In this document: in pieces, positions 31,918-37,501 of the stretch
Position numbering within the stretch: position 1 is the stretch's first letter
Layout of the letters: every line of letters begins with the position of its first letter
Assembly: GCA_023512255.1 (NCBI GenBank)
Contig: JAILZY010000004.1
Coordinates: 35,780 to 99,779 of the forward strand
Direction of reading: 5' to 3'
Length of the DNA stretch: 64,000 nt
Origin: a bacterium
GTDB lineage: Bacteria; SZUA-182; DTGQ01
Program-made: the position numbers and the translations under genes
The notes under the pieces: generated by a model
What the model saw: the letters and a program-made list of their open reading frames with translations, nothing else
What the model was told of the DNA's origin: nothing
The model's database searches: none

Positions 31918-33477
31918 TCACTCGGAAAAGACAATGGCTTGGTAGACCTCTACCTTGGTTTTGGTTGGATCCTTCCAGGCATCGTCAGGCAGACCAGCCT
32001 TCTGGCAGAGGCTCTGGAGGAAACTTTCCTTATCCGGCAACTGCTCCCACACCTGGGGAAGATAGGTTGCTCGGTGCCATCCCTGGCTGAGAATCACCCC
32101 ATCCACTCCGGGGCGCAACTGCCGCTTCAGATCCTCGGCGTCAGAGAATTTGAGCTCCCTTGGCGGGGTGAGAATGCTGATTTCAATCTCTACCTCATCC
32201 AGCTCACTTTTACTCAGCGGGGAAAATCTTGGATCGCGAAAGGCCGCATTGAAGGCATTTTCCTTCACGCAATCGCAAAGTCGCTGCTCAGGGGTGATCG
32301 TGCCGATACAGCCGCGAAGCTGCCCCCTCTTGTGGAGGGTAACAAAGCAGCCTCGCTTTTCTCGTACATACGGCGAAAGGTTTTCCGGCAGAGGGTCTTT
32401 TTCCTTGCTCAGCGTATTTTTGATCACGCACCGGGCGAGGGTGAGGAGCATCTTGCGGTCTGCCTCAGAGATCGATTCTGAGCTGCTTTTGGCGCTCTTT
32501 CCCCTCTCGTTTTTCCCCTCATCATTATTATCATCACTGCTCTTGCCACCTTTCAGTTCTTGCCCTTCTTTATTAGCCCTGGTTTTTTCATCCCCTTTTG
32601 CTCCACCACTGACAAAGGCAATGCTGGCATAACCAACTACCTGGTCAGGAGGGCCGGCTGTGTCACCTGAATTTCGATAGTCAATTAACTCTGGCCGCCA
32701 TCCCTTTTGCCGAGCGATTTCCATAAGTGCCAGGATAGGGATTTTGCCGCAAGCCTCACTTTCAGCCATTCGGTTAAAATCCATGTCTGTAATGGCCCTG
32801 GTGCAGCTTTCATCAAGCAGTTTAGCCTTGTGGTAAGGATAATAATGAGAGAGATCAGAGCTGGCTACAATCAGGGTATGCTCATCAATGTGGGGCAGCA
32901 GTGCTTTGGCTATCCGGCCAGGATCAACCTGCCCAATGGTAATGGGAACCAGCTCGAAGCTCTTGAGCATTATTTGCAAAAAGGGCAGTTGCACCTCAAG
33001 GGAGTGCTCCTTCTGATCCATATCCGGCAGTGGGGAAAAAAGCTCTTGCTGGCGCAAGGTGGCCGCTATGGGGGAGAGAGGGATATCGCCCAGCGGAGTG
33101 CGGTAGGCATCTACTTCTATAATCGATGCCTTGGCCGCAGGCAGCCAGTGACTTGGGGCCAGAACAAAAACGGTTTTGGTGGCAGGATCGATCTGTCTAA
33201 AGCCTGTGGCGGCTACGGTCCCTGAGTAAATATATCCGGCATGAGGAGAGATCAATCCCATAATCCTGCCTGATACTGGCTTCCCTTTCTTTTCGTTCAG
33301 AAATTGCCGAACCATACCAGCTAGCTTGGTTTCCTCAGCGGGGTAAAATTGCCCAGCCACTGCCGGAAACCGTATCCTTTTTTTCTCCTTCCGGCCAGGC
33401 TCATCCTTGGCATAACCGAAAGAACCAGACAAGGTGAGTATAATAAGCATCAAGACTAGATAACCAATGATTTTCAT
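31918..33477 (-). CDS. AmmeMemoRadiSam proteins B (Memo) and A (AMMECR1) fused, with signal peptide
   Basis: 519 residues. Signal peptide (MKIIGYLVLMLIILTLSGSFGYA), then a Memo-like domain (about 37-290) with the metal/active-site blocks SPHAGYIYSGTVA, APSHWLP, KEHSLEVQLPFLQ and ASSDLSHYYPY; a charged low-complexity linker (about 290-340); and an AMMECR1 domain (about 340-519) with KRGCFVTLHKRGQLRGCIG and FSPLSKSELDEVEIEISILTPP. The A and B proteins are usually separate or fused and lie beside a radical SAM enzyme; the biochemical role is not established. Both domains are normally cytosolic in eukaryotes, so export here is notable. Next gene upstream is the radical SAM partner. Confidence 0.92.
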   Translation of the reverse strand: MKIIGYLVLMLIILTLSGSFGYAKDEPGRKEKKRIRFPAVAGQFYPAEETKLAGMVRQFLNEKKGKPVSGRIMGLISPHAGYIYSGTVAATGFRQIDPATKTVFVLAPSHWLPAAKASIIEVDAYRTPLGDIPLSPIAATLRQQELFSPLPDMDQKEHSLEVQLPFLQIMLKSFELVPITIGQVDPGRIAKALLPHIDEHTLIVASSDLSHYYPYHKAKLLDESCTRAITDMDFNRMAESEACGKIPILALMEIARQKGWRPELIDYRNSGDTAGPPDQVVGYASIAFVSGGAKGDEKTRANKEGQELKGGKSSDDNNDEGKNERGKSAKSSSESISEADRKMLLTLARCVIKNTLSKEKDPLPENLSPYVREKRGCFVTLHKRGQLRGCIGTITPEQRLCDCVKENAFNAAFRDPRFSPLSKSELDEVEIEISILTPPRELKFSDAEDLKRQLRPGVDGVILSQGWHRATYLPQVWEQLPDKESFLQSLCQKAGLPDDAWKDPTKTKVEVYQAIVFSE

Positions 33478-34681: not shown

Positions 34682-36855
34682 CCTCTCCTCCTCATCTTGA
34701 TCAATATGAGCAGGCTGGCTGATTTAACCACTGCTGCTGAAATAAGTATCCCGGCGATACCAAATCTGGGAAGTAGCCATAAACTGGTTACTATCGTCCC
34801 ACAGGAGGCCCCGGCCAGGTCCGCCAGATAGAGCTGTCCTGTGATCCGCGGGGTCGCTCCATCCAGGTAATGGGAAACAGCCACAAATTGCCACCCTACA
34901 GCCAGAGCAGAGCCAAAGATAAGCACAGGAATGATCCCGCACTGAACAATGGACAAAAACGCATCCGCCTGCAAACTCCGGCCAAACATTGTCAGCCACA
35001 AAGCTAGGCTGATCAGGAGAAAAAGTACCAAATCCTGAATGAAAGTCTGCCTCGCTGGATCGTTTTTCCACTTGCGCGCTGCCAAAGCGCCTGATCCTAA
35101 TCCTATCATAAAGAGAGTTACAAATAAAGAGATCCAAAGATAAACATAGCCAAAAATGGTTTGAAAGAGAAAAAGTAGGGACAGCTCCAAGGAAATCCCC
35201 GTATAACCAGAGGAGAAGGTAACCCCAAGTAGGCTATCCTGCTGATAAGCTATCAGAATACAAAAAGATAGAGCGACAAAGGCCACAATGGCCAAAATCA
35301 GCCAGCTTATCTTTTCTGTTCCTCCGGTTTTTTTCAGCCAGAGATTCAAAAGATGCCGAAAAGCATGGGGCGCAAGATCGCTATTGGCTGCTTCCTCACT
35401 TTCTTCGGCTACCAGTTTCTTGAGCCGCTCCATCCTTTGAGGATCAGTCATCTCAGGCAGTTGATAGTCAACCAGCCATTGGGTACTGATCGCTCGCTCA
35501 GCCAGTCTTTTTTTAATCTCCAGGCCAACCCAAGAGGCGGTGGCAGTACCAAAAGAGCGACTAGAGGCAAGAAAGTAGTGGGTTTCACCAGGAAAAAGAA
35601 AGATATGATCGAATACCTGCCTAAGGGCAGCATAGACAGAGCGATTTAAGGCTAAGCCTTCAGGGTCAAGATAGTTTTCGGCACCAGTCAGGGTAAAGAA
35701 TATGACTCCGCCGGGAGTGAGGATACCCCTGGCTTCCTCGAAAAATTCCCGGGTATAGAAGCGGTTCAGATAGATATTTTCCGGATCCGGAAGGTCAAGG
35801 ATAAGGCAATCATAGCGGATTCCCGCATGTCGGGCTTTCTTGATAAATAGCCTCCCATCGCCTACATGGGCATGGATAGAGGGCCGGCTGAGACTGCGGT
35901 AAATTTGCCGATCCATACTTAGGATAACTGGATCGAGCTCTACATAGTCGATCCGGCTTGGATTGTGCTTTAGGATTTCCAAGATCGTGCCAAATACCCC
36001 ACCCCCGATCAGCAGCACTCTGGCTCCCTCTCTAACCTGGATCATAGGAATGTGGGCCAGCGCCTCGGTACGGTAATCACCACTTGAGAAAAGAGGAATG
36101 CCTCCTGAGAGGACATTCAACTGCTGGCCACTGCGGGTGATCGACAATTGGGCAAAGGGAGTATTTTTATGAAGAAGAATTTTCTGCCCAGGCATCTGCC
36201 AGGACAAGGTAGAGAGATTGAGCGGCAGGCTAAAGGCTATGGCTGTGGCCAAAAGAGGTGGCAGCAGCCGCAGCCGAGGTGAGCTAAAGAACACGGCTAC
36301 AGCAAGGTTTCCAAGCCCCACCACCATCATCACTCCCCAATGGGAGAGGAGATAAACAAAAAGAAAGCTGAACCCAAGCCCCCCTATTATCTCTCCCCCA
36401 AGGTCGATAAGATAAACCGCTGACGGAGCATCCCGCCAAGGAAGCAACGAGGCGGCCAGGGGAATGAGACTGGCGCAGATGAGAGCATAGGGCATGAGAA
36501 TCATACTGAGGCCAACCGCAGAGGAGCCCATACCCGGTATCTCCCCCCGAACCAAGAGCAGCGGCCAAGCTCTGAATCCGGCAAGCTGAAAGAAGGGAAT
36601 AGTTGCCAGTAGTATGTGGCCTAAAAATAGCAGGCGATGCGGATCCTTTCTTTTAGTTAACCATATTCCAAGCCAAGCGCCAGAGGCAGAAGACAGAAGC
36701 CACAGGCCAAGCCCAAGGCCAATCACCAGCTCGTTTCCACCAAAGGTGGCCATTCCCTCCCTGATGAGAACCAATTGAGTTACTACCGAAGAGAAGCCAA
36801 TGACAGCCAGGGAAATCATGATCTTGGGAATTTTGGGCAGCGACATTTTTTCCAT
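34678..36855 (-). CDS. Polytopic membrane protein with spermidine-synthase-like domain
   Basis: 725 residues in three parts: seven or so N-terminal membrane helices (about 10-205), a soluble domain like spermidine synthase (about 240-500) and a second helical bundle (about 520-725). The middle has the SAM/dcSAM-binding VLLIGGGVFGTILEILKHNPSRIDYVELDP, DGRLFIKKA and DCLILDLPDPENIYLNRFYTREFFEEA blocks. This MFS-like-plus-spermidine-synthase architecture is known but of unproven function; polyamine production is not certain. It is coupled to the AmmeMemoRadiSam genes. The frame opens at 36957, but the ATG at 36855 follows GAGCGG and begins MEKMSLPKIPKI; an ATG at 36846 is also possible. Confidence 0.85.
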   Translation of the reverse strand: MEKMSLPKIPKIMISLAVIGFSSVVTQLVLIREGMATFGGNELVIGLGLGLWLLSSASGAWLGIWLTKRKDPHRLLFLGHILLATIPFFQLAGFRAWPLLLVRGEIPGMGSSAVGLSMILMPYALICASLIPLAASLLPWRDAPSAVYLIDLGGEIIGGLGFSFLFVYLLSHWGVMMVVGLGNLAVAVFFSSPRLRLLPPLLATAIAFSLPLNLSTLSWQMPGQKILLHKNTPFAQLSITRSGQQLNVLSGGIPLFSSGDYRTEALAHIPMIQVREGARVLLIGGGVFGTILEILKHNPSRIDYVELDPVILSMDRQIYRSLSRPSIHAHVGDGRLFIKKARHAGIRYDCLILDLPDPENIYLNRFYTREFFEEARGILTPGGVIFFTLTGAENYLDPEGLALNRSVYAALRQVFDHIFLFPGETHYFLASSRSFGTATASWVGLEIKKRLAERAISTQWLVDYQLPEMTDPQRMERLKKLVAEESEEAANSDLAPHAFRHLLNLWLKKTGGTEKISWLILAIVAFVALSFCILIAYQQDSLLGVTFSSGYTGISLELSLLFLFQTIFGYVYLWISLFVTLFMIGLGSGALAARKWKNDPARQTFIQDLVLFLLISLALWLTMFGRSLQADAFLSIVQCGIIPVLIFGSALAVGWQFVAVSHYLDGATPRITGQLYLADLAGASCGTIVTSLWLLPRFGIAGILISAAVVKSASLLILIKMRRRG

Positions 36856-37115: not shown

Positions 37116-37158
37116 TTGCGGGCGGGTGATAGTTGTGGTTTAAATCACCCGCCCGCAA
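37116..37158. repeat. Perfect 15-bp GC-rich hairpin
   Basis: TTGCGGGCGGGTGAT (37116-37130) pairs with ATCACCCGCCCGCAA (37144-37158) around a 13-base loop. It lies between the 23-residue peptide gene and the spermidine-synthase-like gene. No T-run on either side; it may slow or end the sigma-54 transcript or protect its 3' end. Confidence 0.75.
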
Positions 37159-37219
37159 ACTCTACATAAGGTTTCATCAGTATTTATTCCCCATTTTTGG
37201 ATATTATTTTGGTGGATAA

Positions 37220-37291
37220 TTACTTAATCCCTTTTCGAGAAGACACCAGGAAATAGAGTAGCGTTCCAAAAGCTCCGAGAAATATACCCAT
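37220..37291 (-). CDS. 23-residue predicted membrane peptide with strong ribosome binding site
   Basis: Minus-strand ATG at 37291 to TAA at 37220. The peptide begins MGIFLGAFGTLLYFLVSS and ends with basic residues (RKGIK), i.e. one hydrophobic helix with a positive C-terminal end. The ribosome binding site is AAGGAGG at 37306-37300, 8 bases before the ATG, among the strongest in the window. A consensus sigma-54 promoter is 56 bases upstream of the start. Too short for ordinary gene callers. It could be a small membrane regulator or a leader peptide for the downstream AmmeMemoRadiSam operon; I recognise no known family. Codon content is unremarkable. Confidence 0.65.
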   Translation of the reverse strand: MGIFLGAFGTLLYFLVSSRKGIK

Positions 37292-37346
37292 GATCATCAC
37301 CTCCTTGATGAGAATTTCTTGATTACTGATTTCATTTTTAGAATAA

Positions 37347-37362
37347 TGCAACCAACGTGCCA
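37347..37362 (-). promoter_or_regulatory. Sigma-54 promoter
   Basis: On the minus strand TGGCACGTTGGTTGCA matches the sigma-54 consensus TGGCAC-N5-TTGCA at every conserved position (GG and GC 10 bases apart). Transcription would start near 37336, 45 bases before the 23-residue peptide. Confidence 0.75.
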
Positions 37363-37455
37363 GATATAATTATCGAGAACCATTTTAATAGATATTATAT
37401 TTTCAAATAGTTACTAGAGATAGCTTTTGAGAGCGCTAAGAAATAGAAAGCTAGT

Positions 37456-37501
37456 TTTGCAAAATTGCAAATTAAGCAAATCGACTATTGCAAAATTGCA
37501 T
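37456..37501. promoter_or_regulatory. Paired dyad sites upstream of the sigma-54 promoter
   Basis: TTTGCAA-AA-TTGCAAA at 37456-37471 and TTGCAA-AA-TTGCAT at 37488-37501; centres 31 bp apart (three turns), about 127 and 158 bases upstream of the predicted start. This is where enhancer-binding activators of sigma-54 bind. The activator is not in the window. The remainder of 37502-37671 shows nothing I can assign. Confidence 0.6.

Follow-up and report, generated by a model that had tools for sequence, protein, structure and literature searches.

The window analysed here, a stretch of 64,000 nt from a bacterial draft genome (G000, the source genome), carries on its minus strand two putative enhancer dyads, a sigma-54 promoter, an extended Shine-Dalgarno sequence, a gene for a 23-residue peptide and a perfect hairpin (Table 1). 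A polysaccharide cluster adjoins this unit. Downstream on the same strand lies an operon (36846-31918) for a spermidine-synthase-like membrane protein, an AmmeMemoRadiSam radical SAM enzyme and a fused AmmeMemoRadiSam B/A protein, whose gene is followed with a small overlap by that of an RlmI-like methyltransferase. In the fused protein (window 31918-33477) the B and A domains are joined in 519 aa, with a signal-peptide-like start. For the spermidine-synthase-like protein, the ATG at 36846 (MSLPKIPK, as in the congener described below) is a likelier start than the one at 36855.

Table 1. Features of the promoter-peptide unit and of the neighbouring operon (positions in the window).
Feature	Position	Strand	Remarks
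Enhancer dyad 1 (upstream activating site), ATGCAATTTTGCAA	37501-37488	minus	centre at about -158
Enhancer dyad 2, TTGCAATTTTGCAA	37470-37457	minus	centre at about -127; 31 bp from dyad 1
Sigma-54 (-24/-12) promoter, TGGCAC-GTTGG-TTGCA	37362-37347	minus	full consensus; TGGCACGTTGGTTGCA
Extended Shine-Dalgarno sequence, AAGGAGGTGA	37306-37297	minus	near-perfect; AAGGAGGTGATNATCATGGG in the congener G001
Predicted peptide gene, MGIFLGAFGTLLYFLVSSRKGIK	37291-37220	minus	23 aa plus stop; ATG at 37291
Perfect 15-bp hairpin after the peptide gene	37158-37144 / 37130-37116 (arms)	minus	no U-tract
Sigma-70-type promoter of the operon, TTGACC-17-TAAAAT	36995-36967	minus	separate unit
Spermidine-synthase-like membrane protein, first gene of the operon	36846-34678	minus	neighbour; control by the peptide unit not supported

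The full-consensus sigma-54 promoter claimed in the original prediction was found on the minus strand, and a transcript start at about position 37336 is predicted from it. TGGCAC-N5-TTGCA occurs a single time in the window, the expectation under a second-order Markov model being 0.01 per 64 kb. Pattern searches of the whole genome gave 23 sites for TGGCAC-N5-TTGC and one for the reversed control pattern, which indicates that the sigma-54 consensus is genuinely enriched. Several of the 23 sites precede classic sigma-54 genes, which we take from their sequences to encode a PII-family protein (glnK/glnB type) and glutamine synthetase; the consensus thus appears to be used in the source genome. 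RpoN, the sigma factor that such a promoter presupposes, is encoded in the same genome (PF04552, E = 3e-60).

The two dyads are likewise present with the spacing and the distances first proposed, their centres being counted from the predicted transcript start. The paired pattern TGCA-N4-TGCA-N(10-40)-TGCA-N4-TGCA, expected about 0.03 times per genome, was searched in nine genomes of the phylum and was found at one locus in the source genome and at one in its congener G001, in both cases at the peptide gene; it was absent from the other seven, and the control pattern gave no match. The enhancer block has the same length (43 bp) in the two species and differs at 13 of its 43 positions, none of which falls on the 16 letters of the TGCA motifs (P = 0.0005). 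A genome-wide regulon defined by the exact dyad was considered and rejected: the dyad occurs at just three places, of which one is coding and one lies in a terminator-like stem. The genome encodes many enhancer-binding proteins; an activator (enhancer-binding protein) model gave 27 matches, not all confirmed singly and none linked to the dyads, and no activator gene was found adjoining the promoter-peptide unit. PrsR was also rejected as the activator, as no equivalog was detected (best match 437 bits, cut-off 502.6).

Behind the strong Shine-Dalgarno sequence, the proposed peptide gene was located at its predicted ATG, and it is present in a single copy. Residues 1-16 of the peptide are hydrophobic (mean hydropathy about 2.0), the C-terminus is basic with a net charge of +3, and glycines follow the pattern G2-x3-G6-x2-G9; the peptide is probably embedded in the membrane with a single span. 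In the congener 20 of the 23 residues are identical (87%). The nucleotide differences between the two ORFs are distributed 3/0/8 over the codon positions, 8 of 11 thus being at third positions, with a dN of 0.061, a dS of 0.664 and a dN/dS of about 0.09. When the same changes were placed at random, at least 20 identical residues were kept in 120 of 20,000 placements. The codon-position pattern, the dN/dS ratio and the random-placement test together support translation, and the 23-codon ORF looks translated, the selection test being a modest one with 23 codons and two species. As judged from sequence, the promoter and the peptide gene form a real, dedicated sigma-54 gene. The peptide had no match in Pfam or NCBIfam, and no homologues beyond the genus were found in the nine phylum genomes, in the genome_contigs, viral_contigs and plasmids collections, or by a DNA pattern in viral contigs. 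A weak peptide match in G002 was discarded, the region having neither the promoter nor a comparable small gene. Additionally, a 12-codon upstream ORF (37335-37297) starts at the predicted transcript start and ends inside the Shine-Dalgarno sequence; it is found in both species, and its sequence is poorly conserved.

The 15-bp hairpin that had been noted after the peptide gene is present (37158-37116), with a folding energy of -31.8 kcal/mol (z -7.7), and has a corresponding hairpin in the congener (GGGTGGGTGATTT/AAATCGCCCACCC). It is likely to form the 3' end of the unit, either as a terminator or as an mRNA-stabilising stem, termination at this position being less than certain because of the missing U-tract. 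A fold of the full-length transcript pairs the Shine-Dalgarno sequence with sequence beyond the hairpin, and this partner is missing in the congener. A match to the Rfam family Chlorobi-RRM was dismissed as chance, since it reached 26 bits (gathering 45), covered the hairpin on the other strand and did not recur in the congener.

The evidence on conservation comes from two genomes of one genus, both of them draft assemblies, with G001 as the single other genome of the genus compared. The promoter-peptide part is 80% identical in G001, and the conserved blocks of the alignment are the two dyads, the promoter, the Shine-Dalgarno sequence and the ORF. Both the promoter and the peptide frame are accordingly kept in the congener. 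The 3' part of the unit aligns poorly and is interrupted in G001 by repeat sequence. The upstream flank also differs, as in G001 an acyltransferase-like gene lies between an O-antigen-polymerase-like gene and the peptide unit. Downstream, the G001 contig with the operon ends 405 nt upstream of the first gene, and 150 nt lie between the downstream end of the peptide gene and the start of its contig. Since both contig ends carry GGGGGAATTTT repeats, the order of peptide and operon is probably conserved in G001 but interrupted by repeat sequence.

The explanation that we favour, and regard as probable, is a self-contained one-gene sigma-54 unit that makes a membrane peptide, with the next-door operon transcribed separately. 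The transcript would carry a very strong ribosome-binding site, and its translation would yield a peptide of 23 residues that spans the membrane once, with the N-terminus outside and the basic C-terminus inside. The predicted glycine-faced helix of this peptide would be suited to packing against itself or against a partner protein. Once the activator senses its signal, the probable target of the peptide is a membrane protein or the membrane itself.

In the original prediction the peptide was additionally seen as a possible leader setting the expression of the AmmeMemoRadiSam operon. RpoN and the conservation in the congener uphold the part of that interpretation in which a sigma-54 promoter drives a probable membrane peptide; the control of the operon did not stand. 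A leader peptide or upstream promoter for the operon would fit the position of the unit, on the same strand and 374 nt before the operon begins, and the probable conservation of this order in G001. However, the operon has a sigma-70-type promoter of its own, with a counterpart in G001 (TTGACC-18-TAAAAT), and the strong hairpin intervenes; own promoter and hairpin suggest two transcription units, so that control of the operon by the peptide is unlikely. The repeat sequence and contig break between peptide and operon in G001 also argue against a leader, as does the peptide itself, which has no series of regulatory codons such as attenuators typically contain. Moreover, relatives have the first gene of the operon without the promoter-peptide unit. 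The spermidine-synthase-like gene is found in 7 of the 9 phylum genomes, and upstream of it in G002, G003, G004, G006 and G007 no matching sigma-54 site or peptide was found (in G003 about 580 nt were covered). A separate scan of loci L061-L067 again gave the gene without a sigma-54-peptide unit upstream; L061 and L062 apparently duplicate G002 and G003, the other five loci being additional. The operon's first gene was thus seen without the unit in ten more distant relatives (five phylum genomes and five loci), and a leader function is very improbable.

A sigma-54-controlled regulatory RNA resembling Vibrio Qrr, with the peptide secondary or the RNA dual-functional, is unlikely but deserves more weight than a leader. 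With two dyads spaced by about 30 bp upstream of a sigma-54 promoter, and with a short transcript ending in a hairpin, the locus resembles qrr genes, and the predicted RNA folds better than shuffled sequences (z -4.0, to which the terminal hairpin contributes much). Against this, the differences between the species follow a third-position pattern with a conserved protein, and the near-perfect Shine-Dalgarno sequence is kept in G001, whereas the 3' part aligns poorly and is interrupted by repeats there; the dyad spacer is 4 bp rather than 3, and no credible Rfam match was obtained. Known small membrane toxins are similar in size to the 23-residue peptide, and a short hydrophobic peptide with a basic tail might also be a type I toxin paired with an antisense RNA. 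Sigma-54 control combined with an exposed, strong Shine-Dalgarno sequence is unlike known type I toxins, however, the gene is single copy, and no antisense promoter stood clearly above chance (6 sigma-70-like sites, 3.3 +/- 2.0 in shuffles), which makes a toxin the least probable of these explanations.

Among known systems, the LuxO sites at Vibrio qrr genes have the form TTGCAW3TGCAA (PMC10162802, PMC11443567). As there, two TGCA-type dyads spaced by about 30 bp lie roughly 90-160 bp upstream at a sigma-54 promoter, and the transcript predicted here is likewise short and monocistronic. In contrast to the W3 spacer of Vibrio, a W4 spacer is present in both species, so that the dyads do not have the LuxO-site form, and the product looks like a translated peptide. 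The Qrr family in Rfam gave no match at E values up to 1. Given the 4-bp spacer, membership in the LuxO/Qrr system is not claimed, and the likeness is at most one of layout. PrsR and sigma-54 control single-gene PEP-CTERM proteins near exopolysaccharide genes (PMC1569441). The peptide unit is comparable in that its one gene is preceded by a long intergenic region, that a polysaccharide cluster adjoins it and that it has a sigma-54 promoter and an upstream activator motif; it differs in that the peptide has no PEP-CTERM signal or PEP motif and that the enhancer pair is used once, the PrsR motif serving many genes. The small single-span membrane protein YohP of E. coli (27 aa; PMC12719787) is similar in size, in its hydrophobic span and in having no enzymatic domain, but there is no sequence-family match, and control here would be exerted by a dedicated sigma-54 enhancer pair. 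The general association of sigma-54 with envelope and polysaccharide functions (PMC3162934) is in keeping with the adjoining polysaccharide cluster and gives no clue to the peptide in particular.

Elsewhere (G000:C29:8751-8915; L007, L127, L158), the source genome encodes another small membrane protein driven by sigma-54, of 55-56 aa (MRIFLIFKLL..., MRIFLIFKLLILAVLTCIMGLIMMPALLLGGTQFIREVYSVVEREVIQVRKAFLS), whose ATG follows a sigma-54 site at a distance of about 45 nt. Protein and site, at a similar distance, are conserved in G001, G002 and G003 (relatives L159, L160, L161), that is, in four genomes of the family, and the protein had no match in Pfam or NCBIfam. The arrangement of a sigma-54 promoter ahead of a small membrane protein therefore recurs in the lineage. 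More tentatively, and with less than even probability, the peptide unit may represent a one-target circuit, in which an enhancer-binding protein is devoted to a single 23-residue membrane peptide that would be the output in the way the Qrr RNAs are in vibrios, in a lineage repeatedly using sigma-54 for tiny membrane proteins.

Gene callers usually overlook tiny membrane proteins, and a readable control switch is rare among these. Here, an explicit and conserved switch of a sigma-54 promoter and a unique enhancer pair makes the gene predictable, and the inducing signal could be sought via the activator. Both sigma-54-driven small membrane proteins suggest that searching behind sigma-54 promoters is a workable route to such genes in uncultured bacteria.

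Several further sites were observed. Upstream of the spermidine-synthase-like gene of G002 (L042:10050-10490), a short secreted protein with two near-identical tandem repeats (PTLDISSPSSFVSSLPGSSPWLVGPLANSSIFAPQAILWGYSYVPTSPWY) is encoded. At L003 (G000:C17:21210-21224) a sigma-54 site is followed, after about 158 nt, by an ORF for a single-span product of 41 aa, MHYLDRLDFVYFLLPALMSFVCVYICNNVKLPSAKRPEKGE. In both species, TGCA-N6-TGCA dyads to which a related activator might bind lie upstream of the sigma-54 promoter for a secreted protein (MRLGEKLFGIF... / MRSGEKVLFIF...; L004, L114). At L055 and L116, the two congeners hardly differ in the sigma-54 site TGGCACAGTTATTGCTCT or in a block of about 35 bp upstream of it (GTCCAATAATTGATCTGTCCATGATTCTATCAA), and this block is likely to be the enhancer of another activator.
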